39,733 nt of DNA from a virus, in the IMG/VR virus record IMGVR_UViG_3300026130_000434, positions 1 to 39,733 of that record; one strand, given 5' to 3'. Within the stretch, counting starts at the first letter, position 1, and each line of letters begins with the position of its first letter. A model generated the notes under the pieces. It was not told the origin of the DNA and ran no database searches. It saw nothing but the letters and a program-made list of their open reading frames with translations. Position numbers and translations under genes: made by a program. Below, in pieces: positions 1,273-33,415 of the stretch.

Positions 1273-1962
1273 ATGAAAAGATTAATACATTCCCATATGG
1301 CAATATCGCTTGCCGTAGTTGTGGGTCTTGTTTATCTTGCAACACAAGATTACAAGCACCGAATGCAACTTCTTAATACCCAAATTAAAATATCAGAACA
1401 GTTGGACGAACTTAACACCGCAGAAATCATTGTTAAGGTAGAACAGCCAGAACAAATTGCTACTATCCCTGAACCGCCAAACGAAACTATCATAATCACT
1501 GAACCAACAGGTGAGCCAGGACGATTAGATGAAACCCTACACCCAGATGTATATTGTCTTGCAAAGAACGCATTTTTTGAAGCAAGTATAGATAATTTGG
1601 CAGGTATGGCAGCAGTAGCAGATGTTGTATTGAACAGAGTAGAGGACACTAGGTATCCAAATACGGTATGCGGTGTTATACAAGCAGGCAAGAAAGATGA
1701 TAATGGCAATCCAATAAAGAATCGTTGTGCATTTTCTTGGTATTGTGATGGCAAGGATGATGATGTGCCACGAGAAACAGAAAACTGGAAACGTGCTAAA
1801 ACTATCGCATGGAACTTAATCAAGAATGGCAAATACCGTGGCATTAGTGATGGTGCAACACATTATCACGCTACATATGTAAAACCAAAATGGATAAAGG
1901 ATAAAGGTATGGTAGAAGCAGGTAGAATAGGCGAACATATTTTTTACCGTTGGGAGCGATAA
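1273..1962 (+). CDS. SleB-type cell wall hydrolase, membrane anchored
   Basis: A 229-residue protein that probably cleaves peptidoglycan. Residues 8-26 form an uncleaved signal-anchor-like hydrophobic segment, then a Pro/Thr-rich linker (about 60-90), then a SleB/CwlJ-type hydrolase domain (Hydrolase_2, about 95-229). Family hallmarks visible include AKNAFFEAS, with the conserved Glu, followed by AVADVVLNRV, CAFSWYCDG and GATHYHATYVKPKW. In tailed phages this family serves as endolysin or in spore and cell wall lysis. A second, unrelated hydrolase (GH19) lies at 21439, so this one may act at another stage, such as infection or lysis from the inner membrane. It is probably the last gene of the 365-1962 run, since a new promoter follows. 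Confidence 0.85.
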   Translation: MKRLIHSHMAISLAVVVGLVYLATQDYKHRMQLLNTQIKISEQLDELNTAEIIVKVEQPEQIATIPEPPNETIIITEPTGEPGRLDETLHPDVYCLAKNAFFEASIDNLAGMAAVADVVLNRVEDTRYPNTVCGVIQAGKKDDNGNPIKNRCAFSWYCDGKDDDVPRETENWKRAKTIAWNLIKNGKYRGISDGATHYHATYVKPKWIKDKGMVEAGRIGEHIFYRWER

Positions 1963-2025: not shown

Positions 2026-2625
2026 ATGGCAACACTAGAAGATATCTTCACTGTAGATATGTTTCAACCCAAAATAAGCAGTCTACAAATTCCACTACCA
2101 AAAAACATCAAAGGGTTACTAGATGAGTTGGATGCAGTACCGTCAGGCTCTAGAGCAATGCGTCAACGGTTCGAAGAAAACTTGGCATTTGATTTACTAT
2201 CATTTGATGGTACCGCAGAGGATGCTAACTTAGATGCAAGGTGGAAATATACATATGCGTATGAGTTATTGCATCTGGTAACCGACTTAACTGATTGGGA
2301 TTTTTCAGTACAATACAGTGACTATACAGATAACAAACTTCAAGAGGCAGGATTTATGCGATACAATTTTGCCCCATACGGTGACATACTATCAGAATGT
2401 GTTTATCTATGGCAAGATAATACAGAAGAAGGATTTGTGAGTGTAGAAGTTGTTGCGAAACGAAACTTAAATCATTACAAACAAATTTGGGACCGTTTGG
2501 ATGTAGAATACTATGCTAAACATCTATGGAAAAGCAGTCCAAGATATGAAGACAAAAAAGAACACGTGGTAAAGAACATTATCACCGAACATTTTAACCA
2601 ACTTGCCGCAATGATAGATAAATAG
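2026..2625 (+). CDS. Hypothetical phage protein
   Basis: A 199-residue soluble protein, acidic overall, with no domain that I recognise. It opens MATLEDIFTVDMF and contains many aromatic residues. It has its own sigma70-like promoter and good ribosome binding site (ACTGGAG), suggesting early or middle expression. It is followed by a palindromic late-promoter region, so the next gene is likely under separate control. No signal peptide or membrane segment. Confidence 0.6.
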   Translation: MATLEDIFTVDMFQPKISSLQIPLPKNIKGLLDELDAVPSGSRAMRQRFEENLAFDLLSFDGTAEDANLDARWKYTYAYELLHLVTDLTDWDFSVQYSDYTDNKLQEAGFMRYNFAPYGDILSECVYLWQDNTEEGFVSVEVVAKRNLNHYKQIWDRLDVEYYAKHLWKSSPRYEDKKEHVVKNIITEHFNQLAAMIDK

Positions 2626-2646
2626 TTAGAACTATTTATTGGGGAG
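2617..2646 (+). promoter_or_regulatory. Palindromic late promoter next to a ribosome binding site
   Basis: A perfect 10 bp inverted repeat (ATAAATAGTT, 2618-2627; AACTATTTAT, 2630-2639; loop AG). Both arms contain a T4-late-like box, GATAAATA on the plus strand and AATAAATA on the minus strand. The 3' arm ends one base before the GGGGAG ribosome binding site (2641-2646). A transcript passing through would carry the hairpin; one starting at about 2630 would lack the 5' arm. Confidence 0.6.
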
Positions 2647-2650
2647 CGGC

Positions 2651-3604
2651 ATGCCGGTATTATTTGACAAAATAAATGAAAACGCCTTCTCCGGTACAGA
2701 ACTAACAATGCGAAAAGTAAACGAGTTGTTAGACCCTGTACTGTCAGAGAAGGTTGCTATAGCACGAGACATAAAACTATTAGAGAACGATTCACGTCCA
2801 AGAATTTATTGGGTTCATGGTATTCCAGGTGATACTCCTGCAAATCCTGCCATTGAGAATCGTACAATCAGAGATCCGGCAACACGATGGAATTACATTG
2901 ACCGCATTGTGTTTGTTAGTGAATGGCAACAAGCACAATACGCAAAGCAGTATAAACTTACTCCGAAAGAGTTAAAAGAACGTACATGTGTCATACGCAA
3001 TGCTATACACCCCATAGAAGCGCACACGAAGCCTTCAGGCAAGATTAAATTAATATACACATCCGTACCAGTACGCGGTTTAAACGTGCTGTATCAGGTG
3101 TTTAGTGAGATAGCAGATAGATATCCAAATGTTGAACTAGATGTATATTCATCTTTTAACATATACGGCATACCCCATATGGATAAACGTTTTGAGCGGT
3201 TGTTTGATGCGTTACGTGCTCATCCACAAATAAACTATTATGGTACTGTAAGTAATTCAGAATTGCGTGAAGCATTAAAGCAGAGTCATATTTTTGCTTA
3301 CCCTAGTACATTTATGGAAACCAGTTGTGTTGCATTAATAGAAGCAATGAGTGCAGGTCTATTGTGTGTACACAGTAGTATTGCCGGACTTCCAGAGACT
3401 GCCGCTGGACACACTAATATGTATGAATGGTGTACATCACCAACACACGAGAAACGATTTGCAGAACATTTAGAACGTGCTATAAAGCAATATATCAACG
3501 GTAATTTAAGTGGTATACCAGCACAACAACAATATATAAACGATAATTATTCCTGGGATGTTCGCATGGAAGAATGGAATAATTTCATCAAGGAGATAAT
3601 ATAA
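2651..3604 (+). CDS. Glycosyltransferase, GT4/group 1 type
   Basis: A 317-residue protein starting at ATG 2651, seven bases or less after GGGGAG (an upstream TTG at 2639 lies inside the hairpin and is less likely). The C-terminal half is a typical GT-B nucleotide-sugar-binding domain: IKLIYTSVPVRGL, then a FAYPST segment, then ETSCVALIEAMSAG with the E-x7-E signature, then a GLPE loop. It would transfer a sugar from a nucleotide donor to an unknown acceptor. With the GT25-type enzyme at 4850, sulfotransferases and SGNH-like proteins, it suggests a glycan decoration module acting on virion proteins, phage DNA or the host surface. Confidence 0.85.
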   Translation: MPVLFDKINENAFSGTELTMRKVNELLDPVLSEKVAIARDIKLLENDSRPRIYWVHGIPGDTPANPAIENRTIRDPATRWNYIDRIVFVSEWQQAQYAKQYKLTPKELKERTCVIRNAIHPIEAHTKPSGKIKLIYTSVPVRGLNVLYQVFSEIADRYPNVELDVYSSFNIYGIPHMDKRFERLFDALRAHPQINYYGTVSNSELREALKQSHIFAYPSTFMETSCVALIEAMSAGLLCVHSSIAGLPETAAGHTNMYEWCTSPTHEKRFAEHLERAIKQYINGNLSGIPAQQQYINDNYSWDVRMEEWNNFIKEII

Positions 3605-3605
3605 A

Positions 3606-4847
3606 ATGGCAAAAGTCAGATTTAACAATGTAGAATTAACAAAATCAGTGGGTACACGTTCTTTAATATTGCCGAGCCCTTGGTTGCAAGCAACTGAACA
3701 AAAATTACTTTCAAGTGATATAGAAGCAGAGGATCGGTTTGGGTCCGCAGTATCCATATCTGCTGATGGTAATACCGCAATTGTAGGTGCTAATCAGGAA
3801 AGCACAGACGCGAATGCGGTAGGCGCCGCATACATCTTCACTCGTTCTGGCGATGTTTGGACTGAACAACAGAAAATTCAAGCAAGTGATAAAGAAGCAC
3901 AGGATTTTTTCGGTTGGTCAGTATGCATTAGTAGCGACGGAAATATTGTAGCAGTTGGGGCAATCCAAGAAGGATCCAGTGGTTCAGTATACATCTTCAC
4001 TCGTTCTGGCGGGGTATGGACAGAACAACAGAAAATAACACCCACTACAACATCGGGAGCCAGGGTTGGAGAGAGCGTTGATATTTCAACCGATGGAAGC
4101 ACACTAATATTGGGCTGTAGAGGAGGTGATCAGGTGTTTATATACACGTATAATGGTTCGTCTTGGGTGGAAGAAGGAATTGTTACACCTGATATCCCTA
4201 CCAATAGATTCGGACTATCGGTGTCGTTGACTAGTGACGGCAACATTGCCGTTGTTGGTGCGCCTTGGGATAGTAGTGTATCTTCACAGGAAGGTTCTGT
4301 GTGGATATATCAACGTATAGGAACATCGTGGGGCAATAAGATTCAAAAATTAACTGCACCAGATGCCGCTACCAGTGACCAGTTCGGTAATTCAGTTAAT
4401 ATATCAGATGATGGCAACACGATATTTGTTGGAGCCTATGGAGATGATACAACTGCTACTGATGCAGGATCAGTTTATGTTTATAACAGGGATTTACAAA
4501 ATCCTACTACATGGAATTTCAGTCAAAAAATTGAACTTGATACCGCTACATCTTTTACATGGTTAGGTTATACGGTGTCTTCTAGCAATGATGCAAGTAA
4601 AATTCTTATAACCGGGTACCACCAAATAACTGCTGACCCGATTCGAACTGGTGCGGCTTATGTATACGAATTAGTTAATGGTCAATATACAAATCCCGTA
4701 CAACTACTTGCGAGTGACCGCGAAGAGTCTGATTACTTTGGTTGGTCATCTGGTATTTCAGGTGACGGAAATACCGTAATTGTGGGCGCAATCTTTGAAG
4801 ACACAGGAGGCAACAACGCTGGTGCAACATATGTTTATATGGTATAA
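3606..4847 (+). CDS. FG-GAP repeat beta-propeller protein
   Basis: A 413-residue protein beginning two bases after the glycosyltransferase stop. It has seven repeats of about 50 residues with the pattern FG-x2-V-x-IS-x-DG-N-x5-VGA, starting near DRFGSAVSIS and ending with DYFGWSSGIS, as expected of a seven-bladed integrin-like or FG-GAP propeller. Repeats 3 and 6 are the most degenerate. There is no signal peptide, so surface exposure would be on the virion. FG-GAP propellers mediate binding to proteins or glycans; a tail-fibre or capsid-decorating adhesin is the most likely role. Its position between two glycosyltransferases suggests it may itself be glycosylated. Confidence 0.85.
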   Translation: MAKVRFNNVELTKSVGTRSLILPSPWLQATEQKLLSSDIEAEDRFGSAVSISADGNTAIVGANQESTDANAVGAAYIFTRSGDVWTEQQKIQASDKEAQDFFGWSVCISSDGNIVAVGAIQEGSSGSVYIFTRSGGVWTEQQKITPTTTSGARVGESVDISTDGSTLILGCRGGDQVFIYTYNGSSWVEEGIVTPDIPTNRFGLSVSLTSDGNIAVVGAPWDSSVSSQEGSVWIYQRIGTSWGNKIQKLTAPDAATSDQFGNSVNISDDGNTIFVGAYGDDTTATDAGSVYVYNRDLQNPTTWNFSQKIELDTATSFTWLGYTVSSSNDASKILITGYHQITADPIRTGAAYVYELVNGQYTNPVQLLASDREESDYFGWSSGISGDGNTVIVGAIFEDTGGNNAGATYVYMV

Positions 4848-4849
4848 CG

Positions 4850-5560
4850 ATGAAAATAGATAGAGCATTAATCATCCGAAGACTCCGAGTTAAAGAGTCA
4901 CTAGAATATGCCGAAATGTGTGCGAAGACTTGTGAAGAACACGGTCTTCCATACGAATACATTGACGGCGTAGAATTCATGACCGGACCGGAAGCATTAG
5001 AATCTGTAGGCGTTTGGTTACAACCTGGCGTGAAAACAACAGATGGGCATCTTAACTGTCATGCTTCACATGTTAAAGCATGGCGTAGAATTGTAGAAAT
5101 AAATAAACCATGTATAATACTTGAACATGATGCTCTAGTATTAGGCGATGTTCGTAATATAGATATACCCGATATGGTTGTTACTACATTTGGTCATCGT
5201 GTTGGTTTACCTGATATGTACACTCCTATTGGACCTATCAAAGAGTTAAAACAAATTGAAAAGTCTATAGGTGTTCATGCGTGTGGGCTTACACCAGAAA
5301 CATGCCGTTGGTTGCTGAATGATTTGGAAACAAACGGTGTTAGTATTAATGTAGATGATTATCTTATCATTGAACGCCGTTCTGGGTTGCCACTGTATGT
5401 TGCTAATCCACCACAAGTAGTATGTTGGCCACGTGTTTCTACACGAGAATGGACAGACGAAAACAAAGAACAAAAGACCATGGGAGCCACATGGAGTTAT
5501 TCACATGGATTAACACCAGAATGGATTGCAGGGTTGAAAACAACTAAAAAGAGAACATAA
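4850..5560 (+). CDS. GT25-like glycosyltransferase
   Basis: A 236-residue protein matching the LPS glycosyltransferase family 25. Signs are the start IDRALIIRRL, the block GHLNCHASHVKAWRRIV (family: G-x-x-GC-x-SH-x-x-xW) and ILEHDALVLGD, which corresponds to the metal-binding EDDA segment of the family but with His in place of one Asp. That change may alter metal use. Family members transfer galactose or glucose to LPS or to collagen-like hydroxylysine. It follows the FG-GAP gene by two bases and is followed without gap by the c-di-GMP gene, forming one operon. Confidence 0.75.
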   Translation: MKIDRALIIRRLRVKESLEYAEMCAKTCEEHGLPYEYIDGVEFMTGPEALESVGVWLQPGVKTTDGHLNCHASHVKAWRRIVEINKPCIILEHDALVLGDVRNIDIPDMVVTTFGHRVGLPDMYTPIGPIKELKQIEKSIGVHACGLTPETCRWLLNDLETNGVSINVDDYLIIERRSGLPLYVANPPQVVCWPRVSTREWTDENKEQKTMGATWSYSHGLTPEWIAGLKTTKKRT

Positions 5561-8023
5561 ATGAATATAACTACACCTAAACCAGCGATTGAAATATTAC
5601 ACACTCTAATGGTTAGGTGGATTACCGTTATCGCTGTAATAGGATTATTAGCAGACTCGTTATTCATATACTACTTTGGACTTTCTACGGTCAGAAAAAC
5701 ATTAAATGAATTGTTCATTGTTGTTCTGCTAATAAATATTTTTCTATACACCTTTTCATGCTTAAATATTAAAAACTGTTTTTGGAACGTTGAACGTGCG
5801 TGGAATACTATTATTTTAGTCCTACTATGCATAGGGATTAACACATTGATTATAGACTCGGGTAATGCTTACGTTAATGCAATGAGTATTACATGGCCTG
5901 CATTGACGTTACTTGTATCAGTACTTACTGTATCACGAAAATATATAATCCCAGTTGTTATTGCGTATTCCGTAATGTTTTTGTTTGCAGGTACAATAAG
6001 CACAGTTTATGGACACAGTTTATTTCACCAAATTCTTGAGTTGTTTAATGCACATCAATACTTGGATGTTATCAACCATTACAACGTAAAAACTGATGGT
6101 GTTAAAATAACGCTGTACACGATGTTCGTAGGCACAACCGCATTTTGTGTTTCTTTGGTATTAAAGCATTTTATGCAACTAGTCATGGATGATTTAGAAA
6201 AACAAGCAAAACTTCACCGACACTATGCCCGCAGTACTGATTTGGCTGCCGACGAATTATCTAAGACTCTAGACACACTTAATACAGTCGCAGAGTCCGG
6301 TAAAATTGGATTGTTTACATATAATGTTAAGGATGATTTATTCGAAGACGTAAACACACCGTTCAGAGAGTTGTATGAATTACCTAGTGACAAGTATCAA
6401 CTTATAACATTAGACAATGTTCTTAACAAGTATCTAGATCCGTTTGTTCACACAAGCAATTTAAACTATAAAAAACTACACAACGAATTTTTACGATTTG
6501 CAGATTGGACCACTAAAAAAGAAAACACACATCGAATATACCACGAGTCAGGTGATAGGCGCAGTGTAAATGTTATTAGTACAGCAGAGTACAATGAGAA
6601 TCAAGAATTAGAAAAGATTCACGGCAGTGTATACGATGTTACTAAAGAACATGATATGAATGAAAAACTTCGTGAATTATCAGAAAACGACCCACTCACT
6701 GGTATATATTCTCGCCGAGGATTCTATAACGCAATAGAAAACTACGCGGAACAGGGTTGGGTAATACTTATAGACTTAGATTACTTCAAGGCAGTAAATG
6801 ATGCTTACGGACACGATGCCGGCGACATACTTATATCCCAAGTAGCAACGTTATTAGACAACAAAGTTCAACAGTGTAACGGTATAGTATCACGTATGGG
6901 AGGCGAAGAATATCTTATATACGTACCCTATGATATTGTTACCGGAATTGATAACGTAAAGAAATTTATATTTGACATTTTAATTAGCATTAAAAATGAA
7001 GTATTTGAATTGCCAGATGGCACTGAAATACGTAACCGTACAGCATCAGTTGGTGCCGCCTACAAAGACCCTAGTGAACCCATAGAAAGCATTATAACTC
7101 TTGCCGACCGAGCATTGTCACATGCGAAAGAAACAGGCAGAGACCGTTATGTTGTCGCAGACAAAGAATTTATGGATGTTATGCGAGCAAGAGGCGCAGA
7201 CATAACAGTAGAAGATATTCGTATAGGATTACAACTAGAACAATTTTACTATGTTGCGCAACCTATTGTTACTGCGCCGCATGGTCATATTGTAGGCTTT
7301 GAATTGTTATTGCGTTGGAATCGTAGAGGAATACAAATCAGTCCGGAATACTTTGCTGATAAAGTTGACAGATTACACCTTCAGCATCAAGATATTATTG
7401 GTGAAAAATTAATGAACAAACAACGTGAAATAATAGAAGAAATAAGCAAACATTTTCCAGATGCATATGTGAGTTATAACGTTTCTATAGATCGTTTTTC
7501 TGTGCCAGGCGGTGGGGCAGAAGTTTTAAAACGTAAGAAACAGATGCTATTTGGTATTTTAACACTTGATAAATTCGTACTAGAAATCAGCGAACACGCA
7601 GGAACATCAAGATATGACATAAACACTATTCGCAGAGAAATGAAAGTTGTTCAGAACTCAGGTATTCGAATCGCACTTGATGACTTCGGTAAGGATTCGT
7701 CTAACATAAATAGATTACAAGATTTGCCAGTAGATATTATAAAATTTGACAAATCCATTGTGGATAGTTTATCCACACAATACGAGACGGAAAATGGTTA
7801 TGTTCCAGGCTCAGGCACAAAGACTGCTTCTATACTTGCTATGTTGGCAAAACAATTAGGTAAGAAAGTTGTGGTTGAAGGCATCGAAGATGCAAAACAG
7901 TCATTATCATTCAAGACGTTTGGTGTAAATCATCAACAAGGTTTCTACTGGCACAGACCTGTTGAGAAAGATACTATTGAGAAACTTGCAAGACTACCCG
8001 AGAATTTAAAACCTGACTCCTGA
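5561..8023 (+). CDS. Membrane-bound GGDEF-EAL c-di-GMP enzyme
   Basis: An 820-residue protein with about six membrane segments (residues 18-215, MASE-like), a PAS-like region (about 240-365), a GGDEF domain and an EAL domain. The GGDEF active site reads GGEEY at 447-451, preceded by DPLTGIYSRRGF and DLDYFKAVNDAYGHD, so cyclase activity is plausible. The RxxD inhibitory site is absent (Q and G replace R and D). The EAL domain starts with ELL at Glu581, and keeps DDFG at 707-710, PVDIIKFDKSIV, the metal-site Asn and Glu residues and QGFYWHRP, so phosphodiesterase activity is also plausible. Such a full-length enzyme is rare in phages. It probably alters host c-di-GMP, hence motility and adhesion. 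It lies in the operon starting at 2651. Confidence 0.93.
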   Translation: MNITTPKPAIEILHTLMVRWITVIAVIGLLADSLFIYYFGLSTVRKTLNELFIVVLLINIFLYTFSCLNIKNCFWNVERAWNTIILVLLCIGINTLIIDSGNAYVNAMSITWPALTLLVSVLTVSRKYIIPVVIAYSVMFLFAGTISTVYGHSLFHQILELFNAHQYLDVINHYNVKTDGVKITLYTMFVGTTAFCVSLVLKHFMQLVMDDLEKQAKLHRHYARSTDLAADELSKTLDTLNTVAESGKIGLFTYNVKDDLFEDVNTPFRELYELPSDKYQLITLDNVLNKYLDPFVHTSNLNYKKLHNEFLRFADWTTKKENTHRIYHESGDRRSVNVISTAEYNENQELEKIHGSVYDVTKEHDMNEKLRELSENDPLTGIYSRRGFYNAIENYAEQGWVILIDLDYFKAVNDAYGHDAGDILISQVATLLDNKVQQCNGIVSRMGGEEYLIYVPYDIVTGIDNVKKFIFDILISIKNEVFELPDGTEIRNRTASVGAAYKDPSEPIESIITLADRALSHAKETGRDRYVVADKEFMDVMRARGADITVEDIRIGLQLEQFYYVAQPIVTAPHGHIVGFELLLRWNRRGIQISPEYFADKVDRLHLQHQDIIGEKLMNKQREIIEEISKHFPDAYVSYNVSIDRFSVPGGGAEVLKRKKQMLFGILTLDKFVLEISEHAGTSRYDINTIRREMKVVQNSGIRIALDDFGKDSSNINRLQDLPVDIIKFDKSIVDSLSTQYETENGYVPGSGTKTASILAMLAKQLGKKVVVEGIEDAKQSLSFKTFGVNHQQGFYWHRPVEKDTIEKLARLPENLKPDS

Positions 8024-8031
8024 CATAAATA
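8024..8031 (+). promoter_or_regulatory. T4-type late promoter box
   Basis: CATAAATA, with start expected near 8037 and the AAAGGAT ribosome binding site at 8047-8053 before the gene at 8062. Confidence 0.6.
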
Positions 8032-8061
8032 GGGGTACTATTATTCAAAGGATACACGATA

Positions 8062-8394
8062 ATGTTTTTACTAGATGACCATCATTTCGAACTAGCAAAT
8101 GACATAGAACGTTTAATCAATGAGTTTTCAGAAACGTTAACTGACATACAAAGTGTTGACACAACATACACCATCATATCATTGTACAAAGAAAATAAAA
8201 CGGTGGATGATACGGTGTTGAATGTTAGATTGTATATAGAAAAGTATTATCCTGATATTAACAAATTTGCGTTGGTTGAATTTCTAAACAGTCTGAGAGT
8301 AATGATGTATGTTTTTCGCAATGTGCGAATCACAGATTTTATAAATGACCAAAAAAATAATGGAGTAATTAATGCACTACAGCAAAAAGCATAA
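8062..8394 (+). CDS. Hypothetical protein
   Basis: A 110-residue protein, acidic at the start and predicted mostly helical, with no recognised motif. It follows a late promoter box and overlaps the next gene (sulfotransferase) by 23 bases, so the two are likely translated from one late mRNA. Function unknown. Confidence 0.55.
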   Translation: MFLLDDHHFELANDIERLINEFSETLTDIQSVDTTYTIISLYKENKTVDDTVLNVRLYIEKYYPDINKFALVEFLNSLRVMMYVFRNVRITDFINDQKNNGVINALQQKA

Positions 8395-9073
8395 TTTATT
8401 GTTTGTTAGAATACCGAAGAATGTATCATCATCAATGGCGGCATATCTGGCATCAAACACTGAACGAGTAAAAGGTGATATCTCAACTGGTGTACCAGAA
8501 ATCATTCTGCCTGGTTATAATATCTCTACTGAGGTAGTTGATAAGTTTCAGCATGACAACAGGTATATGCACCTTACACTACAAGAAATAGTAGATAACA
8601 ACGTACTATCCAAAGAAACAGTATTAAATTCTTATAACTTCGGTATTATACGCAATCCATTAGAAAGGCAACTTAGCCTGTTTTTCTGGATAGAATATTT
8701 TCGTCAGGACAAGAAAGATACATCGCCTGAACACTTTCGTAAAAGATTTTCAAACGGATATGACATGCTGATGCACGATGGCGGTTCTAATAAAATAAAA
8801 CAAGTAGACTATTTAAAAGTTGACGGTGAAATTTGCGGTAACTTTTGGGCAGTACAAGATATACAAGCACAATTGAAATCTCTAAGAGAACAACACAACT
8901 TTTCTGAAACTTATCCTCTGTTACGGTTAAAAGATGATTCGAAACCAAAAGACTTAACGAAAGAAGAATTGATAGAAATGTACTACGACTCTGCTACTCG
9001 GCAGGCAGTAGAAGAATATTACGCCGAAGATTTTGAAATGCTTAAGAAAGTTTCGTTGCCACAAGGAAAATAA
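8372..9073 (+). CDS. Sulfotransferase-like protein, copy 1
   Basis: A 233-residue protein with features of Sulfotransfer_2-type enzymes that move sulfate from PAPS to sugars or other hydroxyls. The 5'-phosphosulfate loop is RIPKNVSSSM (residues 12-21) after a short beta strand, and the 3'-phosphate site is GIIRNPLERQLSLFF (about 90-104), the equivalent of the family's RNPxxR-xxS. It is directly followed by a diverged paralogue. In this context it would sulfate a glycan on the virion or the cell surface; the acceptor is unknown. Confidence 0.75.
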   Translation: MHYSKKHNLLFVRIPKNVSSSMAAYLASNTERVKGDISTGVPEIILPGYNISTEVVDKFQHDNRYMHLTLQEIVDNNVLSKETVLNSYNFGIIRNPLERQLSLFFWIEYFRQDKKDTSPEHFRKRFSNGYDMLMHDGGSNKIKQVDYLKVDGEICGNFWAVQDIQAQLKSLREQHNFSETYPLLRLKDDSKPKDLTKEELIEMYYDSATRQAVEEYYAEDFEMLKKVSLPQGK

Positions 9074-9793
9074 ATGTATTACAGTCATAACCACAATTTA
9101 TTATTTGCTAGAATACCAAAGAATGCAAGTACATCAATGCAAGCATATTTTATATCTAATTGTGAGAAAAACATTACAAAAGATGTTTATTCAGGTCTGG
9201 GCGAAATTCTACAACTAGAGAATTCTCCCACATACCCACACGAAGTGGCACAACGATGGTTAACATTTTCTAGATACCATCACTTAACACTAGAAGAAAT
9301 GGTACAGGAAAATCTGCTAACCGAAGAACAAGTTTTGAATGCAAATGTGTTAGGCATAGTAAGAGAACCTTTATACAGAACTCTTAGTTTCTTTTTATGG
9401 GACGCAGAAATAGGTGTTTTTAAGGATGGATCTCCCGAAAGATTTAGATACCACCATCAACAGGGTTACGATAGTGTAAAAGCGAAATACAACGCTTCTC
9501 CCGGACCATGTGATGTAGAATTAAGGCAATCTGATTGGTTAATGTACAAAGGAGAAATGTTAGGAGAATTTTGGGCAGCCGAAGATATACCAAAAAGATT
9601 GCCTGCATTTGCTGAAAAGGTAGGAATAAAGGAAACTTATCCGCTACTAAAATTAAAGAGTCATTCCAAGTATACTCAAGGGAAAACAAAGCAGGAACTT
9701 ATAGATGAATATTACGATGATGCCACTCTTAAGGCGGTAACAGAATATTATGCTACTGACTTTGAATTATACAACCGTGTTAAAATGAAATAA
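9074..9793 (+). CDS. Sulfotransferase-like protein, copy 2
   Basis: A 239-residue paralogue of the preceding protein, starting right after its stop codon. It shares HNLLFARIPKN with the PAPS loop RIPKNASTSM, the 3'-phosphate motif GIVREPLYRTLSFF (Glu replaces Asn) and the C-terminal ELIDEYYDDATLKAVTEYY block. The two copies are clearly homologous but well diverged, so the tandem duplication is not recent or both came together. Different acceptor positions are plausible. Confidence 0.75.
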   Translation: MYYSHNHNLLFARIPKNASTSMQAYFISNCEKNITKDVYSGLGEILQLENSPTYPHEVAQRWLTFSRYHHLTLEEMVQENLLTEEQVLNANVLGIVREPLYRTLSFFLWDAEIGVFKDGSPERFRYHHQQGYDSVKAKYNASPGPCDVELRQSDWLMYKGEMLGEFWAAEDIPKRLPAFAEKVGIKETYPLLKLKSHSKYTQGKTKQELIDEYYDDATLKAVTEYYATDFELYNRVKMK

Positions 9794-9796
9794 ATA
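9789..9796 (+). promoter_or_regulatory. Late promoter box, leaderless spacing
   Basis: AATAAATA overlapping the sulfotransferase stop, with exactly five bases before ATG 9802. In T4 the late box covers -13 to -6, so the A of this ATG would be +1. Confidence 0.55.
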
Positions 9797-9801
9797 CCTA
9801 T

Positions 9802-9960
9802 ATGAAGATACCCGGTGATAATCAGTTAAACGGTTTTATAGAAATGTTCGGTGACGTATTGCCGGATCCAAAACACGAACCTATAAAATTTTTATATTAT
9901 TGGAGGTTGTATTTGCTTAAGGAGGGATTGTTAAATGAAAGTGTTAATCCAAGGAGATAG
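9802..9960 (+). CDS. Small hypothetical protein, possibly leaderless
   Basis: A 52-residue frame starting five bases after a late promoter box and ending inside the next gene, with which it overlaps by 26 bases. It begins MKIPGDNQLNGF and has a basic end. The AAGGAGGG used by the next gene lies within it, suggesting coupled translation. No family recognised. Confidence 0.5.
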   Translation: MKIPGDNQLNGFIEMFGDVLPDPKHEPIKFLYYWRLYLLKEGLLNESVNPRR

Positions 9961-10600
9961 CCACACTAAATATATTGAAAACGCAGCCGCGAGAAGTTTA
10001 TTACCAAAACAACATCTGTACAGTTTTACTATTGTTCACGGTGCGACTTCTTTGGGCTTAGACAATCCAAATTCAAAAACTGACGCACTAAACAAGTTTC
10101 GTAATGGACTCCGAAGGCATAAACCTGAAATCCTAGTGACACAACTAGGCGAAGTAGATTGTGGTTTCGCTATTTGGTATAGACAACAAAAACACGGAAC
10201 TTCTATAGAGGAACAAGTGATAGACAGTATAACTAACTATTTTAAATATTTAGAAGAGGCAGAGAAAGAAGTAAAGCACATCATAGTTACTGCCCCTACC
10301 TTACCGTCAATTAAAGATGGTGACATTACCCCTGAAATGTCAGTTGCGAATTTGCGTAAGGAAATTAAAGCAACACAACTAGAACGCACAGAACTAACAC
10401 TAACATACAGTGAAATATTAAAAGAAAAATGTATTGAAAAAGGATATACATACGTTGACTTTAATAGAACGATTATGGTCGACGGAGTTATAGATGATAA
10501 ATTTCTTTCTAAAGATGCAAAAGATCATCATTTGAATAATGCTATAATACCTCATTGGGCTGAACATCTTTCGCCTGTGCTAAACAGATTTAAGGGATAA
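9935..10600 (+). CDS. SGNH/GDSL-like hydrolase, copy 1
   Basis: A 221-residue protein with the SGNH fold hallmarks. Block I is VLIQGDSHT at residues 3-11, with the candidate nucleophile Ser9. The central QLGEVDCGF resembles the oxyanion block, IIVTAPTLPS a later strand, and DAKDHHLNN near the C-terminus supplies the Asp and His of block V. Family members remove or transfer acyl groups, including acetyl groups on polysaccharides. There is no signal peptide. It overlaps the small gene before it, has a strong AAGGAGGG site, and is followed by a paralogue that lacks the catalytic residues. Confidence 0.7.
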   Translation: MKVLIQGDSHTKYIENAAARSLLPKQHLYSFTIVHGATSLGLDNPNSKTDALNKFRNGLRRHKPEILVTQLGEVDCGFAIWYRQQKHGTSIEEQVIDSITNYFKYLEEAEKEVKHIIVTAPTLPSIKDGDITPEMSVANLRKEIKATQLERTELTLTYSEILKEKCIEKGYTYVDFNRTIMVDGVIDDKFLSKDAKDHHLNNAIIPHWAEHLSPVLNRFKG

Positions 10601-10604
10601 CAAT

Positions 10605-11258
10605 ATGAAAGTACTAATACAAGGCGATGTTCATACCATTAATATGCGATTGGCGTACGAACGCGGTCTACTGCCAAAAGAACATACTTATGAATTTACA
10701 ACATTACCAGGCGCTACAACACATCCATTAGATAACCCTAATGGTAGACGAAACACTATCAAACATTTTAAAGGTGAATTATCACGTATCAAACCTGAAG
10801 TACTGATAACACATGTAGGGGAAACAGATTGCTCATTTTCTATATGGTACCGACATGAAAAATATGGAATAACTATAGAAGACCAAGTTATCGAAAGTAT
10901 AAAAGGTTACTTTGATTATTTGAAAGATGCTGAACAAATAGTGGATAATATTATAGTTACTTCCGTAACTCCACCAACCTTACCTCAAGGAGTAACTCAT
11001 CCTGCTCTAAAACTAAGAAACGAAGTTATGTCTCCTGTTTCTAATCGAATGGCACTCACCGCTATATACTGCGAAATACTTTATGGTCACTGTGTGGAAC
11101 GAGGTTACACATATGTTGCTGCAAATCAAAGTATAGTAAAGCACGGTTCTGTATTGCCTGAATTCTTGGGCACTGACCCTTCTTCCGCGCTGTTAAGTGA
11201 CAATGTAGTTCCGGTATGGGGCAAACATCTTACAACTGCGATAAATAATATTGGATAA
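10605..11258 (+). CDS. SGNH-like paralogue without catalytic residues, copy 2
   Basis: A 217-residue paralogue of the preceding protein (shared MKVLIQGD, QVIESI, YFDYLKDAE, RGYTYV). The nucleophile position is Val in GDVHT, and the C-terminal Asp-His region is replaced by DPSSALLSDN with no His, so it should be catalytically dead. A binding or scaffold role, perhaps as a partner of copy 1, is inferred. It has no own promoter and is probably co-translated, being separated by four bases. Confidence 0.7.
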   Translation: MKVLIQGDVHTINMRLAYERGLLPKEHTYEFTTLPGATTHPLDNPNGRRNTIKHFKGELSRIKPEVLITHVGETDCSFSIWYRHEKYGITIEDQVIESIKGYFDYLKDAEQIVDNIIVTSVTPPTLPQGVTHPALKLRNEVMSPVSNRMALTAIYCEILYGHCVERGYTYVAANQSIVKHGSVLPEFLGTDPSSALLSDNVVPVWGKHLTTAINNIG

Positions 11259-11261
11259 TAC

Positions 11262-11291
11262 TTGACTAAAATAGTCGGGTAATGATATACT
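11262..11291 (+). promoter_or_regulatory. Sigma70-like promoter for iscU
   Basis: TTGACT (11262-11267), 18 bp spacer, TATACT (11286-11291), then TAGGAGATAG ahead of ATG 11324. Confidence 0.7.
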
Positions 11292-11323
11292 TAAATATCA
11301 AACTAATATATAGGAGATAGACT

Positions 11324-11437
11324 ATGGCTTACAGCAAAGCAGTTTTAGACCATTACGAAAATCCACGCAACGTAGGTAAACTAGACCGCAATGATGACAG
11401 TGTTGGTACTGGCATGGTGGGTGCTCCTGCGTGTTAA
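11324..11437 (+). pseudogene. iscU: Orphaned 5' fragment of iscU (codons 1-37)
   Basis: This fragment encodes IscU residues 1-37, from MAYSKAVLDHYENPRN to MVGAPAC, then TAA. It ends exactly after Cys37, the first cluster-assembly cysteine, where IscU normally continues with Gly-Asp-Val-Met. It retains the native promoter and ribosome binding site. A second, diverged version of the same 37 codons lies 600 bp downstream, after an HNH endonuclease gene. Of 31 identical residues, about 18 use different codons in the two copies. The fragment would give only a truncated peptide. Confidence 0.9.
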
Positions 11438-11440
11438 TTT

Positions 11441-11448
11441 GATAAATA
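11441..11448 (+). promoter_or_regulatory. Late promoter box, leaderless spacing
   Basis: GATAAATA with five bases to ATG 11454, predicting transcription from the A of the endonuclease start codon. Confidence 0.6.
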
Positions 11449-11453
11449 ATAGT

Positions 11454-12050
11454 ATGAGTAAAAAATACGGCATACTAAAAAATTGTAAGCATTGCGGAAC
11501 TGAATTTGAAACCAAGCCAAGATATGTAGATTACTGTTCGACAGCCTGCAAAAATCCTATTAATAGACCAGGTAATACTGCTTGGAATAAAGGATTAACA
11601 ATGACAGAAGAACAAAAATCTAAAATGAACTTGGATGGGCTTAATAGGGGAAGAGGCTGGAACAAAGGATTAAAAAATCCCGAGCAGTCAAAAAAGTGGA
11701 CGGGTGAAAATAATCCTAATTGGGACGGTAAACTCAATAATCAACGCCCACATAAACCAAAAGATTCCGCTTTTGAAAAGTACAAAGCAGAATGCAAGAA
11801 AGTTACATATCGCTCTGTTAAAGTATTAAAGGAGCAAAACAAGGTACCTAATAACACAGGTAAACGTAAAACAGATATGCAACTGGATCATATAATACCC
11901 TACAAACAAGGGTATGAATTAGGGCTAGCACCGGAAATTATTGGAGGGATTTCAAACCTACAATATATTACAGGTGCAGAAAATAGAAAAAAGTGGGATA
12001 AATTTCAACCACAACACATAATAGACGAGGTAATTAAAAATGGCATATAG
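11454..12050 (+). CDS. HNH homing endonuclease
   Basis: A 198-residue protein. Residues about 10-35 hold a zinc-ribbon-like CKHC-x17-C-x3-C segment; a middle basic region has repeated WNKGL segments of the DNA-binding NUMOD type; residues about 143-180 form the HNH nuclease core, LDHIIPYKQGYEL followed by NLQYITGAENRKK. It cuts DNA at a target probably lying in iscU around codons 37-38, where it is inserted. An upstream ATG-containing extension in the same frame runs into iscU sequence and is not used: the ATG at 11454 is spaced exactly for a leaderless late transcript. Its last codons overlap the start of the replacement iscU exon, whose AGG-type ribosome binding site lies inside it. Confidence 0.9.
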   Translation: MSKKYGILKNCKHCGTEFETKPRYVDYCSTACKNPINRPGNTAWNKGLTMTEEQKSKMNLDGLNRGRGWNKGLKNPEQSKKWTGENNPNWDGKLNNQRPHKPKDSAFEKYKAECKKVTYRSVKVLKEQNKVPNNTGKRKTDMQLDHIIPYKQGYELGLAPEIIGGISNLQYITGAENRKKWDKFQPQHIIDEVIKNGI

Positions 12051-12472
12051 TGCGAAAGTTCTAGATCATTATGAAAATCCGCGTAACGTTGGTAAACTCG
12101 ATAAGGAGGATTTGCAAGTGGGAACCGGCATGGTCGGCGCTCCTGCTTGCGGTAGGCGATGTTATGCAGTTACAAATCAAAGTAAATGACGATGGTATCA
12201 TTGAGGATGCTAAGTTTTTAACGTATGGCTGTGGATCGGCGATTGCTTCAAGTTCACTTGTGACAGAGTGGATTAAAGGGATGAACCTTGACCAAGCAGG
12301 CGAACTAAAAAATAGTGATATTGCTCAAGAGTTGGCTTTGCCACCAGTGAAAATCCACTGTTCGGTATTGGCAGAAGATGCTATTAAAGCGGCTATTGCT
12401 GACTATAAAACCAAACACGAAGGCAAAGAAACACAATCAGGTGCCGTTGGTAGTTATGAACCTAACGCATAA
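12040..12472 (+). pseudogene. iscU: Rebuilt iscU with a frame break at the junction
   Basis: IscU is the scaffold on which iron-sulfur clusters are assembled. This copy starts with a recoded 5' exon (12040-12150, MAYSAKVLDHYENPRN to APAC) and continues into the native 3' part (12155-12472: GDVMQLQIKV, Cys in YGCGSAIASS, KIHCSVLAED with the His and Cys ligands). At the junction four extra bases (GGTA, 12151-12154) shift the frame, so straight translation stops at 12189 after 49 residues. Removing them restores exactly the universal Cys-Gly-Asp-Val-Met. The 3' part is long and undamaged, so loss of function must be recent, or a +1 shift at GGT-AGG rescues it with one added Gly. The protein also has a 15-residue C-terminal extension. 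Confidence 0.85.
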
Positions 12473-12487
12473 GGAGAATACTATTAA

Positions 12488-12697: not shown

Positions 12698-12706
12698 AGG
12701 AGTGAT

Positions 12707-13686: not shown

Positions 13687-16527
13687 ATGGCTACAGTAGT
13701 ACAAAGATTTGCCGAAGGCGCATATGTTATCACCGCAGATGGTGAAGAGATTCCAGTATATGAGGGTATGGAGATATACCCTGATGACATTATTGTTGGT
13801 GAAGTCGCCACAATAGAAATCGCTGATGAGGCAGTGGCAGCACAAGACCCAGGTGCTGACCCATCAACTATCCCAATAGATGATATTGCCGCATTACAAC
13901 AAGCAATCTTAGAGGGTGCTGACCCTACTCAAGTAGGTGAAAGAACAGCCGCAGGTGCGCCGGCAGCAGGAGGACCAACAGCAGATGGTGGTGGTTCATC
14001 ATTCGTTACGCTTGACAGAAGCGGAGCAGAAGTTGACCCTACTGCTGGCTACGAAACAACTACTTTTAATGCTGAAGTTCAGCAAACGCAAGAAGAACCA
14101 CCAGCGCTAGTTGAACCAGAAGTAGTTGAACCAACACCTGAACCAATCGTAACAGTTACCACAGAAACTCGCACTGATGTTCGTACTGAAACTGAAACAA
14201 AAACAGTGGTCGGTGACGAATATGAAACTGGTCGTACAACTGAAACAAGTAGTGAAACAACTACAGATGAAACTGGTACAACTGTTACCACAACAACTGT
14301 AACAACAATCACATACGATAAAGAAACTAACACCGTTACAACAACCACAACGATTACAGAAACATACGAGCGTGAAGTAACCACTACAGAATATCCAAGT
14401 GGTCAAACAACTGTAACGCTTGGTGAATGGACACTAACGGATACACAGACTGATACTCAAACTGAAACAACAACCACTAACGAACCTCGTGAGCAAGTTG
14501 TTGAAGATGTTGACACTGAGTTTACGCCAGTTGAGCCAGAAGAGCCTACTGTTACTGTAACTAAAGAATACGATGTTGTTACTAATACAGAATCTACCGT
14601 AGAAACTGTGGTTGGTGATGAGTACGAAACAGGTCGTAATACAACAACTGATGTATCAGAAGTTGCGACAGACCGTGGTCAGTTGGTAACAACAACTACC
14701 ACAACTACAACTACAATCACATACAACCAAGAAACAAACACAATCACAACTAATGTAACTACAACGGAATACTATGAGCGTGATGTAACTACGACTACAT
14801 ATCCAGATGGAACAACCGAAGTAGTTAATAGTGAATGGACAATGTATGATTCTGCTACAGACACAAGTTCAACTACAGACACCGTAGAAACACCACGCAC
14901 TGAGGTTCTAACTGATGTAGCAGTGGATGAGGTACGATTTGAGCCTACAGTAGAGACTGTCACAGAGACTAAAGAAGAGGTTGATGTACAAACCACAACT
15001 GAAACTGTTGTAGGTGATGAATATGAAACTGGTCGTACAACTGATACTGATGTAAATGAAGAAACAACAGACCGTGGTCAACTTGTTACTAAGACAACTA
15101 CCACGACTACAACTGTTTCGTACAACCAAGAAACTGACACAGTTGAAACCACGACTACTACCACGACTACATACAGTAGAGATATTACAACCACTACTTA
15201 CCCTGACGGTACAACTGATGTAGTAACAACTGATTGGGAACAAACAGGTCAAACAAGTGATGTTACTGAATCAACTGATACAGTAGAAACACCTCGTACC
15301 GAAGTACTAACTGATGTAGCGGTAGAAGAAACTCGTTTTGAGCCTACTGTTGAGACTATCACCGAGACCAAAGAAGAAGTTGATGTACAAACTAAAACTG
15401 AAACAAATGTAGGTGATGAATACGAAACTGGTCGTACAACTGAAACAACTTCAAATAAAGTAACAAGCGAAGATGGTACAAAAGAAACTACTACCACTAC
15501 AACTACTACAACCGTTTCGTACAATCAAGTTACAGACACGTTAACAACTACAACGACTACCACTACGGCATACAGTAGAGATATTACAACCACTACATAT
15601 CCAGATGGTAGCAAAGATGTAGCAACAACTGATTGGGCACAAACAGGACAAACAACTGATGTTGATACAGTAACAGACACAGTAGAAACTCCACGCCAAG
15701 AAGTACTAACAGAGGATGTGGTTGATGTAAATCTTCTACCAGTTGCTGAAGATGACACATACGAAACAGACGAAGATACACCAGTAAGCGGTGATGTTTC
15801 TGACAACGATACAGACGGTGACGGCACAAGCACATTCTCGTTAATTGGTGAAGATATACCAGGACTGGTGTTTAGCGACAATGGTGAATTCACATATACG
15901 CCAAGTGACGAAGATGGTGACCAGATTGTAACATTTGATTATCGTATTACGGATGAAGACGGTGAATACAGTGACGCTACTGTGACTATTAATGTTGAAG
16001 ATGTACTTGCTCCAGAAGAGCCAGAAGAGTTAGGTCAATGGTTTTTCTCACAAGGAGGCAACGAAGTACAACCTGGTTACGACTATGAGTTAGTAACAGA
16101 TGGCAAGAAAAATGACCACATGGAAATCAATGTACAGAACAAGCAACTTGGTGAGCACCGTGTTGATATAGGTGATGCTGTTAAGTTTACTATTGCGGTA
16201 TCCGGTGATGCTGAATATGAAACAGATTACACATTAAACATGGTTAGTAAGTCACCACAAGTTAATATTGATAGTTGGTCACTTGACAGCGGCACTCTTT
16301 CGGTAGTAATATCAACCACTAAAGATGGCTTTAACTTGTCGGGCAGCACATTTGCTATTGAAGTAACTTCTGTTAACGAAGGCGCTGATGTAGGTGTTGA
16401 GTTTGATATTACAAGTGTAGTACATTATGATGCGAGTGCGAACCAAGACATTGTGATGGGCACATGGGAATCAAACGATGATGTGTTGATTGGATTGATT
16501 GACCCTAACTTTACTGATAGCGTGTAA
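13687..16527 (+). CDS. LapA-like retention-module protein with Thr-rich repeats
   Basis: A 946-residue protein. Residues 1-125 match the N-terminal retention module of LapA-type adhesins: VYEGMEIYPDDIIVGE, then DDIAALQQAILEGADP, then the LapG-type cleavage motif TAAG at 87-90, then GGGSSFVTLDR and VDPTAGYETT. In Pseudomonas and relatives this module lodges the adhesin in the outer-membrane TolC pore until the protease LapG cuts it, under c-di-GMP control. Next come four Thr-rich repeats of about 133 residues, each opening VGDEYETGR, a VCBS/cadherin-like domain (about 678-775, AEDDTYETDEDTP) and a C-terminal domain of about 165 residues. I see no RTX nonapeptides. The protein could be a virion fibre or an adhesin displayed on the host. 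Confidence 0.88.
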   Translation: MATVVQRFAEGAYVITADGEEIPVYEGMEIYPDDIIVGEVATIEIADEAVAAQDPGADPSTIPIDDIAALQQAILEGADPTQVGERTAAGAPAAGGPTADGGGSSFVTLDRSGAEVDPTAGYETTTFNAEVQQTQEEPPALVEPEVVEPTPEPIVTVTTETRTDVRTETETKTVVGDEYETGRTTETSSETTTDETGTTVTTTTVTTITYDKETNTVTTTTTITETYEREVTTTEYPSGQTTVTLGEWTLTDTQTDTQTETTTTNEPREQVVEDVDTEFTPVEPEEPTVTVTKEYDVVTNTESTVETVVGDEYETGRNTTTDVSEVATDRGQLVTTTTTTTTTITYNQETNTITTNVTTTEYYERDVTTTTYPDGTTEVVNSEWTMYDSATDTSSTTDTVETPRTEVLTDVAVDEVRFEPTVETVTETKEEVDVQTTTETVVGDEYETGRTTDTDVNEETTDRGQLVTKTTTTTTTVSYNQETDTVETTTTTTTTYSRDITTTTYPDGTTDVVTTDWEQTGQTSDVTESTDTVETPRTEVLTDVAVEETRFEPTVETITETKEEVDVQTKTETNVGDEYETGRTTETTSNKVTSEDGTKETTTTTTTTTVSYNQVTDTLTTTTTTTTAYSRDITTTTYPDGSKDVATTDWAQTGQTTDVDTVTDTVETPRQEVLTEDVVDVNLLPVAEDDTYETDEDTPVSGDVSDNDTDGDGTSTFSLIGEDIPGLVFSDNGEFTYTPSDEDGDQIVTFDYRITDEDGEYSDATVTINVEDVLAPEEPEELGQWFFSQGGNEVQPGYDYELVTDGKKNDHMEINVQNKQLGEHRVDIGDAVKFTIAVSGDAEYETDYTLNMVSKSPQVNIDSWSLDSGTLSVVISTTKDGFNLSGSTFAIEVTSVNEGADVGVEFDITSVVHYDASANQDIVMGTWESNDDVLIGLIDPNFTDSV
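14212..15730 (+). repeat. Four in-gene repeats of about 400 bp
   Basis: Repeat units begin at GGTGA(C/T)GA at 14212, 14614, 15013 and 15412, spaced 402, 399 and 399 bp. Each encodes VGDEYETGR, a run of Thr codons, YNQETD-type and TTYPDGT-type segments, and a TPRTEVLTDVAV-type end. Units 2-4 are more alike than unit 1, as expected of recent expansion by recombination. Confidence 0.85.
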
Positions 16528-21438: not shown

Positions 21439-22284
21439 ATGTCACTACCGATGAACGAACAACAGTTACAAGCAATATTCCCAAGAAATCCCAACATACC
21501 AAAATGGTATAAGGCAATGCAAGAACTATTGCCAAAATATGGTATTGACACCCCATTAAGATTGTCAGCCTTCTTGTCACAATGCGGACATGAAAGTATG
21601 GGGTTAATGGCGATTGAAGAAAATCTAAACTATTCACAGTCTGCCCTCCTTAATGTATTCGGTAAATACTTTACAGCAGAACTTGCAGCAAACTACGCCA
21701 GAAAGCCTGAACTTATTGCTAACCGTGTATATGCTAATCGCATGGGAAACGGTCCAGAAAAGTCAGGTGATGGTTGGAGGTACCGAGGTCGAGGTGTTAT
21801 ACAACTTACAGGTAAAAATAATTACCAAAAGTTTGCTGAATTTTTAGGTCAAGACTTAGATTATGTTATGGGGTATCTCACCACATACAAAGGTGCGTTA
21901 GAGTCTGCATGTTGGTATTGGCATACGAACGGGTTAAATCGTTTCGCTGATGAACAAGATATGCGTGAACTTACCAGGCGTATTAATGGTGGGTATAATG
22001 GGTTAGAAGACCGTATAAATCACTATGAGCATATTAATCATGTATTTGGTTTAGTAACGGAACAGCATACACTAACACAGTCACAAGTTAATATGCGTAC
22101 CCTACGCAAAGGTGATCACGGAGAAGAAGTAGAACAATTACAACGTGCCTTAGGATTAAGTCCAGTAGATGGTATCTTTGGTCAGGGAACTGAAAGAGCA
22201 GTGATGGCATTTCAAGCACGAAATGGGCTATCACCTGATGGTATCGCAGGACGTAGAACACTAACACGATTGTTTGGAAAGTAG
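21439..22284 (+). CDS. GH19 endolysin with peptidoglycan-binding domain
   Basis: A 281-residue lysin. Residues 1-200 are a glycoside hydrolase 19 (chitinase-like muramidase) domain, with the catalytic-site CGHES (Glu52), GDGWRYRGRGVIQLTG and the following NNYQKFAE. Residues about 215-281 are a PG_binding_1 domain (LRKGDHGEEVEQLQ, DGIFGQGTERAVMAFQ, LSPDGIAGRRT). It cuts the glycan strands of peptidoglycan to free progeny. No signal peptide, so it needs a holin, for which the gene just before it is a candidate. Late expression is indicated by the boxes upstream. Confidence 0.93.
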   Translation: MSLPMNEQQLQAIFPRNPNIPKWYKAMQELLPKYGIDTPLRLSAFLSQCGHESMGLMAIEENLNYSQSALLNVFGKYFTAELAANYARKPELIANRVYANRMGNGPEKSGDGWRYRGRGVIQLTGKNNYQKFAEFLGQDLDYVMGYLTTYKGALESACWYWHTNGLNRFADEQDMRELTRRINGGYNGLEDRINHYEHINHVFGLVTEQHTLTQSQVNMRTLRKGDHGEEVEQLQRALGLSPVDGIFGQGTERAVMAFQARNGLSPDGIAGRRTLTRLFGK

Positions 22285-32476: not shown

Positions 32477-33415
32477 ATGAAACAATTATGGACTGAAAAG
32501 TACAGGCCTAAAAATATTACAGATTATGTATTTCGTGACGATAAACAACGAAAGCAAGTACAAACATGGGTAGACTCCGGAGCAATACCACATCTTCTAT
32601 TCAGTGGTGCGGCAGGTACCGGCAAAACAACACTCGCTAAAGTTCTACTTAATGAACTAGATGTAGACGATGGCGACATAATGTTAATCAACGCATCAAA
32701 CGAAAATAACGTTGATACAATGCGTACAAAGATTAATGGATTCGCAAGTTCACTGCCGTTCTCTGGCGATTTCAAATTTGTGTTACTTGATGAGGCTGAT
32801 TATCTATCGCCCAACGCACAAGCAATTCTACGTAACATGATGGAAACGTATAGTTCAACATGTCGTTTTATTTTAACATGCAACTATCCAAACAAAGTAA
32901 TCCCAGCAATTCATTCACGTTGTCAAGGTTATCATATTGAAAAACTTGACCAAACAGAATTTACAGTACGTATTGCTACCATTCTTCTAGAAGAGGGTAT
33001 GGAGTTCCTACCTGATGATTTAGATGTGTACGTAAAAAGTACATACCCAGACCTTCGTAAATGTATAAATATGGTACAACAGAATATTGTAGATGGTGTA
33101 TTACAGCAACCAAGTTCTGGTGAAGGCGGCGAAAGTGATTGGATTCTTGAATACGTAGCCAACTTTCAAATTGGTAAAATTGCTGAGGCTCGAAAATTAA
33201 TTGTGTCGAAAGCACGACCGGAAGAGTATGAAGGAGTATTCCGCAAACTGTATGAAAATCTTGATTGGTTTGGTGAAGACAAACGAACACAAGGTAAAGC
33301 ATTGATTACTATTCGTGATGGGCTTGTAAATCATTCGCTTGTTGCAGACCCAGAGATTAATCTAAGTGCTACACTATTAGAATTACAATACATTGCAGGA
33401 CAACCGGATGAGTGA
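32477..33415 (+). CDS. 44: Sliding-clamp loader ATPase subunit, gp44/RFC-like
   Basis: A 312-residue AAA+ ATPase of the T4 gp44 and RFC small-subunit type, of normal length. It shows WTEKYRPKNITDYVF at the start, Walker A GAAGTGKT (44-51), Walker B LLDEAD (103-108), sensor 1 ILTCNY and the arginine-finger motif SRC (147-149). It opens and loads the sliding clamp for the replicative polymerase. No gp62-like partner follows that I can recognise; the next gene overlaps it by eight bases. Presence of this gene is a main argument for a T4-like phage. Confidence 0.93.
   Translation: MKQLWTEKYRPKNITDYVFRDDKQRKQVQTWVDSGAIPHLLFSGAAGTGKTTLAKVLLNELDVDDGDIMLINASNENNVDTMRTKINGFASSLPFSGDFKFVLLDEADYLSPNAQAILRNMMETYSSTCRFILTCNYPNKVIPAIHSRCQGYHIEKLDQTEFTVRIATILLEEGMEFLPDDLDVYVKSTYPDLRKCINMVQQNIVDGVLQQPSSGEGGESDWILEYVANFQIGKIAEARKLIVSKARPEEYEGVFRKLYENLDWFGEDKRTQGKALITIRDGLVNHSLVADPEINLSATLLELQYIAGQPDE

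Follow-up and report, generated by a model that had tools for sequence, protein, structure and literature searches.

The 39,733-base stretch of DNA analysed here (the window), which is a complete IMG/VR record, carries a gene for a membrane-anchored PAS-GGDEF-EAL protein of 820 amino acids, and this gene is genuine cargo of a T4-like jumbo phage. Comparisons at the sequence level place the protein, together with one homologue from another phage contig, in a phage-specific lineage of which two members are known. In many bacteria, c-di-GMP sets the balance between swimming and sticking. The best reading of the protein, which we hold at a probability of roughly one half, is that it would raise c-di-GMP as a PAS-gated cyclase that lacks product inhibition, and that its EAL domain would be weak or regulatory. 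The features on which our argument draws are as follows.

1273..1962, + strand: phage lysis gene (SleB-like), left flank of the island
2639..3604, + strand: glycosyltransferase (group 1), upstream in the gene run of the GGDEF-EAL gene (domain match)
3606..4847, + strand: FG-GAP repeat protein (domain match)
4850..5560, + strand: glycosyltransferase family 25-like gene, its last base directly before the GGDEF-EAL start (domain match)
5561..8023, + strand: membrane PAS-GGDEF-EAL protein, 820 amino acids, complete ORF with an ATG start
5561..6163, + strand: N-terminal membrane helices, about residues 9-201 (hydropathy; low-confidence model helices; homology to the L139 protein only)
6308..6637, + strand: PAS-like fold, residues 250-359 (model; below-cut-off PAS_3 match in the L139 homologue)
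6686..7147, + strand: GGDEF domain, residues 376-529, motif GGEEY, without RxxD (Pfam)
7211..7960, + strand: EAL domain, residues 551-800 (Pfam)
7679..7705, + strand: altered EAL loop 6, DDFGKDSSN, residues 707-715 (alignments)
8372..9073, + strand: sulfotransferase (domain match)
9074..9793, + strand: sulfotransferase (domain match)
13687..16527, + strand: LapA-type adhesin, 946 amino acids, with a retention module, a TAAG LapG-like site at residue 87 and threonine-rich repeats
21439..22284, + strand: phage endolysin, right flank of the island
32477..33415, + strand: T4-type clamp loader, which puts the contig among the jumbo phages

The assignment of the ORF at 5561-8023 to the GGDEF-EAL proteins is not a chance resemblance. 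Pfam matches to GGDEF (PF00990, E 2.3e-26, 93 bits against a curated cut-off of 23.8) and to EAL (PF00563, E 2.9e-35, 122.2 bits against 31.3) span the residues listed above, and hydropathy indicates five or six membrane segments within residues 9-201. An AlphaFold2 model built from a 60-row alignment has a mean pLDDT of 80.8; its N-terminal helices are of low confidence and are followed by a long helix (179-246), the PAS-like fold, and GGDEF and EAL parts that are mostly of high confidence. A fold search finds the closest solved structures to be DosP, RbdA/PA0861, MorA and PA0575, and then LapD. The exact ORF, the Pfam domains, the hydropathy and the model thus bear out the original prediction that this is a full-length membrane GGDEF-EAL protein.

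That the protein is phage-encoded, as had also been proposed, is supported by the genes that surround it. In addition to the T4-type clamp loader, the window encodes a Pol III alpha-like fragment, GroES-like and PhoH-like proteins and two lysis enzymes. The nearest isolates by clamp loader are the PA5oct-group Pseudomonas jumbo phages (56.6%), and 13 IMG/VR loci (L002-L014), two of them on 342-kb contigs, cover the clamp loader almost fully at 81-86%. The phage is also represented by a second contig, 49,967 bases long, which aligns at about 99.86% with window positions 11031-39733 and continues into tail-fibre-like genes. This contig does not extend as far as the GGDEF-EAL gene, and the left 11 kb of the window is supported by one assembly.

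That these 11 kb are an assembly chimera or host DNA might be argued from the start of the second contig only at window position 11031, and from the finding of an EAL domain in 0 of 50 related and 0 of 50 sdhB-bearing virus records (two records shared, 98 distinct). Against this, the SleB-like phage gene at 1273 lies on the far side of the GGDEF-EAL gene, GC and codon use are uniform across the window, the L139 homologue sits in a clear phage contig, and the membrane module has no bacterial match among the loci compared. Among 31 ORFs, the GGDEF-EAL gene itself comes nearest to the remainder of the window in codon usage, although long genes are favoured by the measure used; its GC3 of 0.296 compares with a median of 0.300. 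Given the phage genes on both sides, the codon use and the L139 homologue, we judge host contamination or a chimera to be extremely improbable.

A scan of IMG/VR with the single protein recovered no homologue. An alignment-based scan of IMG/VR found an 812-amino-acid homologue on an 11-kb contig (L139), 37% identical over residues 16-809 in the scan and 39% identical in the full alignment. The gene order there, that of a phage replication cluster, is a split family-B DNA polymerase gene, the GGDEF-EAL gene, an HD gene of RelA/SpoT type and a helicase-like (DnaB-N-like) gene that scores below the Pfam cut-off, and the homologue has a PAS_3 match that is likewise below cut-off. For the membrane module (residues 1-245), the L139 protein is the sole match (E 2.9e-21; next E 5.3) among all loci compared, the window itself aside. 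Matches to the whole protein occur in 315 of 369 gammaproteobacterial genomes, the best of them 31% identical, and among the matches listed they start at residue 217 or later. The window and L139 proteins form one clade in a 90-row tree built by a quick method, with support of 100, and the stem of this clade is 1.9 changes per site long. Judged by these comparisons, the gene is not a recent host copy. Neither the two-member alignment nor a DNA pattern for the loop described below yielded a third family member in IMG/VR; of two candidates, L299 was rejected as GGDEF only and L300 because it matched by chance within an unrelated ORF. The RelA/SpoT-type HD hydrolase on the L139 contig (7961-8485) places two nucleotide-signal enzymes together in one phage.

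The cyclase site, GGEEY, had been predicted to be kept, and it is. The motif of the window protein reads RMGGEEY, with Y rather than F at the fifth motif position, and D405, N413, D414, D422, K523 and R527, which we take to be the metal, guanine-binding and K/R residues of the cyclase, are all retained in a 60-row alignment (A3, selected from at least 160 loci). The L139 homologue has GGEEF, and its remaining cyclase residues are retained as well. The RxxD I-site is missing in the window protein (Q437, G441), again as predicted, and in the L139 homologue. RxxD is itself often absent among relatives, being found in 24 of 58 evaluable A3 rows and, for 30 gammaproteobacterial relatives, in 21 of the 26 evaluable loci, and we therefore rejected the missing I-site as a special feature.

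The EAL domain requires a more careful statement. The claim that both sites are intact holds for the cyclase site and for the EAL metal and catalytic residues (E581, N640, E675, E678, D707, D708, K728, E773 and Q793, all retained), but it overlooked an altered loop 6 that is common to both phage homologues. This loop reads DDFGKDSSN identically in the window and L139 proteins, where most other rows have DDFGTGYSS, and neither phage protein (both DFGKDSSN) matches the consensus DFG(T/A)GYSS. Aspartate at position 712 occurs in 2 of the 60 A3 rows, which are the two phage proteins, among loci picked by a pattern that permitted either G or D at this position; none of 30 bacterial loci chosen without the loop pattern has it. 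Loop-6 counts from A3 and from the IMG/VR GGDEF-EAL loci are biased in this respect, since the selection pattern allowed T, K or I and then G or D. A published alignment gives the consensus as DFG(A/S/T)(A/G)(Y/F)(S/T)(S/T/G/A/N), and the first half is said there to position the loop (PMC2994820); a passage in another paper calls loop 6 essential both for dimerisation and for the binding of Mg and c-di-GMP (PMC7290235). The altered loop of the two phage proteins makes it unsafe to call the phosphodiesterase intact. Furthermore, the sharing of one exact variant by two proteins that are only 39% identical points to selection and not decay.

Taken together, the residues suggest the following sequence of events. 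The protein would probably be inserted in the host inner membrane during infection, where its membrane and PAS part would sense a cue and its GGDEF domain would make c-di-GMP with no product inhibition at an I-site. The EAL domain may still bind c-di-GMP, and with its altered loop 6 it would probably either hydrolyse the signal slowly or serve as an internal regulatory site that binds it. The net effect would be a rise in c-di-GMP in the infected cell that favours adhesion over motility, jointly with the surface genes of the island. The topology, activity, direction of change, timing and phenotype given here are what we infer from the protein and its neighbours. The direction of the c-di-GMP change, originally left open as up or down, is probably upwards.

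The cyclase part of this reading is supported by the complete cyclase residues in both phage proteins (GGEEY/GGEEF), and the weak or regulatory EAL by the reports, in the passages cited above, that loop 6 is needed for catalysis or positioning (PMC2994820, PMC7290235). The adhesion outcome draws support from the tight run that the gene shares with surface-glycan genes and from the LapA-type adhesin in the island. Several points count against the same reading. The EAL domain may be active despite loop 6, given that the metal and catalytic residues are all retained; Y at the fifth motif position occurs in just 2 of 60 A3 rows; the family has only two members; and the left 11 kb is on one contig.

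The retained EAL residues also bear on the possibility that the protein is a net phosphodiesterase, in which a GTP-bound GGDEF domain would activate the EAL domain and c-di-GMP would be lowered. The closest folds (RbdA, MorA and DosP) are PAS-GGDEF-EAL enzymes, and this group reportedly includes enzymes that work mainly as phosphodiesterases, which counts against the cyclase reading. We nevertheless consider a net phosphodiesterase rather unlikely, because loop 6 is altered and the cyclase site is complete in both phage proteins. If the protein did work in this direction, the phage could, for example, maintain the motility of cells, limit the matrix or weaken a defence based on c-di-GMP.

Alternatively, both domains might be active, with a signal through the membrane and PAS part setting the direction. 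Two modes have been described for the bacterial bifunctional enzyme ScrC (PMC11315295), and such a two-way switch would fit the retention of both sets of catalytic residues together with a conserved sensor and a long helix. By analogy with ScrC one would also look for scrA/scrB-like partner genes, which were not seen in the window, and the altered loop 6 again argues otherwise, so that we regard this arrangement as decidedly unlikely.

Among solved structures, RbdA (PA0861), MorA and DosP are the best matches by sequence and fold, and they share with the window protein a GGDEF-EAL tandem that follows a PAS-like fold. The window protein differs from them in being only about 15-25% identical (fold search) and in having a phage-specific membrane module, no I-site and the loop 6 DDFGKDSSN. 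Among phage proteins, the GGDEF-only cyclases of Bacillus phage G (gp350), Bacillus phage SP-15 and Bordetella phage CN1 resemble it in being phage-encoded GGDEF domains, but their BFVD matches lack the EAL domain and the membrane and PAS part; by name and length, no GGDEF-EAL tandem is present among the BFVD matches listed. The temperate Citrobacter phage Chris1 likewise encodes an EAL protein. It differs in its length (519 amino acids), in matching the EAL part only, in adjoining an integrase and in having no recognisable GGDEF site (alignment A1). INPHARED gave identities of at most 30.2% among the 40 matches listed, many of which are unannotated fragments or bacterial-looking contigs, and the PHROGs families that match both domains are function-unknown families.

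Proteins of this kind had been described as rarely seen in phages. This is appropriate for the membrane PAS-GGDEF-EAL family, but not for GGDEF-EAL genes in general, which recur on several large IMG/VR phage contigs. These include L140 (184 kb), L150 (543 kb), L154 (170 kb) and L167 (328 kb), whose gene content is phage-like as read. The proteins of L140, L150, L154, L158 and L167 are similar to the window protein in that their GGDEF-EAL tandem is complete and is accompanied by phage genes on the contig; they differ in being 24-30% identical, in having other N-terminal parts and the usual loop-6 glycine, and in being scattered among bacterial rows of the tree. A terminase (PF03237) is present in 11 of the 47 GGDEF-EAL-bearing IMG/VR records, those of L158 and L167 included. 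On the 328-kb L167 phage contig, a flagellin gene (Flagellin_N, Flagellin_C) lies about 5.5 kb from the GGDEF-EAL gene (14836-15651 and 7326-9302). The same contig encodes a short Peptidase_C93 protein (LapG-family fold; L349, 1498-1890; 56 bits against a cut-off of 27), which has no obvious signal peptide and adjoins tail-fibre-like ORFs. We found no report of a phage-encoded GGDEF-EAL protein in the literature covered, which leaves most subscription papers and all preprints outside, and in passages of the jumbo-phage review of Iyer and colleagues (PMC7824862) the matching places are all in the reference list.

The surroundings of the gene were compared by tblastn (E up to 1e-5), using the 63 ORFs of the window against 96 loci, and not whole records, of related phages. 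The right half of the window is largely conserved among these loci, and the SleB-like gene at 1273 matches nine of them. Between the two lies an island: 16 ORFs from 2026 to 16709, and a further eight from 17336 to 21029, have no match among the 96 loci. Within it, the genes starting at 2639, 3606, 4850, 5561, 8062 (an ORF of 110 amino acids), 8372 and 9074 form a tight run that ends at 9793, with gaps, in order, of 1, 2, 0, 38, -23 and 0 bases. PilZ was found in none of 12 records, and Rfam gave no match within the window.

A 342-kb relative (L082, L083 and L084) carries other cargo beside the corresponding flanking genes, namely IMPDH/GMP reductase, fatty acid desaturase, Glu/Leu dehydrogenase, PP-loop and radical SAM proteins; that this related jumbo phage differs in its cargo there suggests a cargo hotspot. 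Further genes of the window are as follows. A phage-encoded succinate dehydrogenase iron-sulfur subunit lies at 12707-13420 (NCBIfam, 353 bits); relatives of this sdhB gene occur at 33 IMG/VR loci, including some in records of jumbo phages from the same group, and a closely related phage is without the succinate dehydrogenase gene at the corresponding place. An interrupted iscU-like gene (11293-12472) consists of a 5' IscU-like segment, an HNH-like ORF (11391-12050, no Pfam match) and a second 5' segment whose frame differs from that of the 3' part at 12071-12472. Redox-type genes encode glutaredoxin-like (18251-18514, by eye) and peroxiredoxin-like (18511-19062) proteins, a DoxX/HvfX-like membrane protein (20211-20615, weak) and a ferredoxin-NADP reductase-like protein (23000-23761). 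A polysaccharide lyase (34151-34969; PF14099, 109 bits) is common to at least two related phage loci.

Since surface and adhesion genes share the island with the GGDEF-EAL gene, an effect on adhesion is plausible, and the adhesin at 13687-16527 is, from its sequence, a possible c-di-GMP output. Its LapA retention module (NF033682) scores 65 bits against a cut-off of 50, and the sequence at its TAAG site reads QQAILEGADPTQVGERTAAGAPAAG, with the motif context as expected. For comparison, Table 2 of Navarro and colleagues (PMC3032553) lists a LapA homologue with QQAIAAGVDPTTALESTAAGPSAAG at the putative LapG cleavage site. The same paper states that c-di-GMP-bound LapD sequesters LapG, such that LapA stays uncleaved (PMC3032553). 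The retention module is above cut-off in just 11 of 185 gammaproteobacterial genomes and in none of 50 related virus records, and among IMG/VR viral contigs it occurs only in the window phage and one relative. The adhesin and the GGDEF-EAL gene co-occur on one contig only. In the last 242 amino acids of the adhesin, no model of a type I secretion signal gave a match with E up to 0.1, and the weak adhesin and tandem-95 matches there fall below cut-off. Export of the adhesin, and its cleavage by host LapG under host LapD control, are hypotheses.

The island adhesin thus resembles the LapD/LapG/LapA system in its retention module and in the LapA-homologue motif QQAIxxGxDPT...TAAG. It departs from that system in that no LapG-family protease is present in the window or the overlapping contig, and in that LapD is catalytically degenerate, whereas the GGDEF-EAL protein is not. 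A LapD-like role, in which the protein would act without catalysis as a c-di-GMP receptor that signals through its membrane part, could be suspected from this adhesin and from loop 6, which is not conserved in LapD either (PMC3032553). We rank this role low, as very unlikely, because the catalytic residues of both GGDEF and EAL are intact and not degenerate; the LapD equivalog score, moreover, is 59.7 bits against a cut-off of 1020.

If the cyclase reading is extended to the island as a whole, one can imagine a c-di-GMP programme of the phage. An uninhibited phage cyclase would raise the signal, host LapD would restrain LapG, and the phage LapA-type adhesin would stay on the infected-cell surface beside glycans remodelled by the phage, so that cells would remain attached or aggregated during virion production; the EAL loop would then be a phage-specific regulatory c-di-GMP site that replaces the I-site. 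In this full form the proposal is tentative and, on the sequence evidence, unlikely. Even so, the presence of a c-di-GMP-regulated kind of adhesin in the same island provides an expected output that is open to direct test.

GGDEF-only cyclases of phages have been annotated before, and the new element is a phage-only membrane sensor fused to GGDEF-EAL. The occurrence of such a protein in two lytic-type phage contexts, at 39% identity, indicates long-held control by some large phages. Moreover, the further GGDEF-EAL genes of large phages, one of them near a flagellin gene, suggest that phage control of motility and adhesion is worth a systematic survey.
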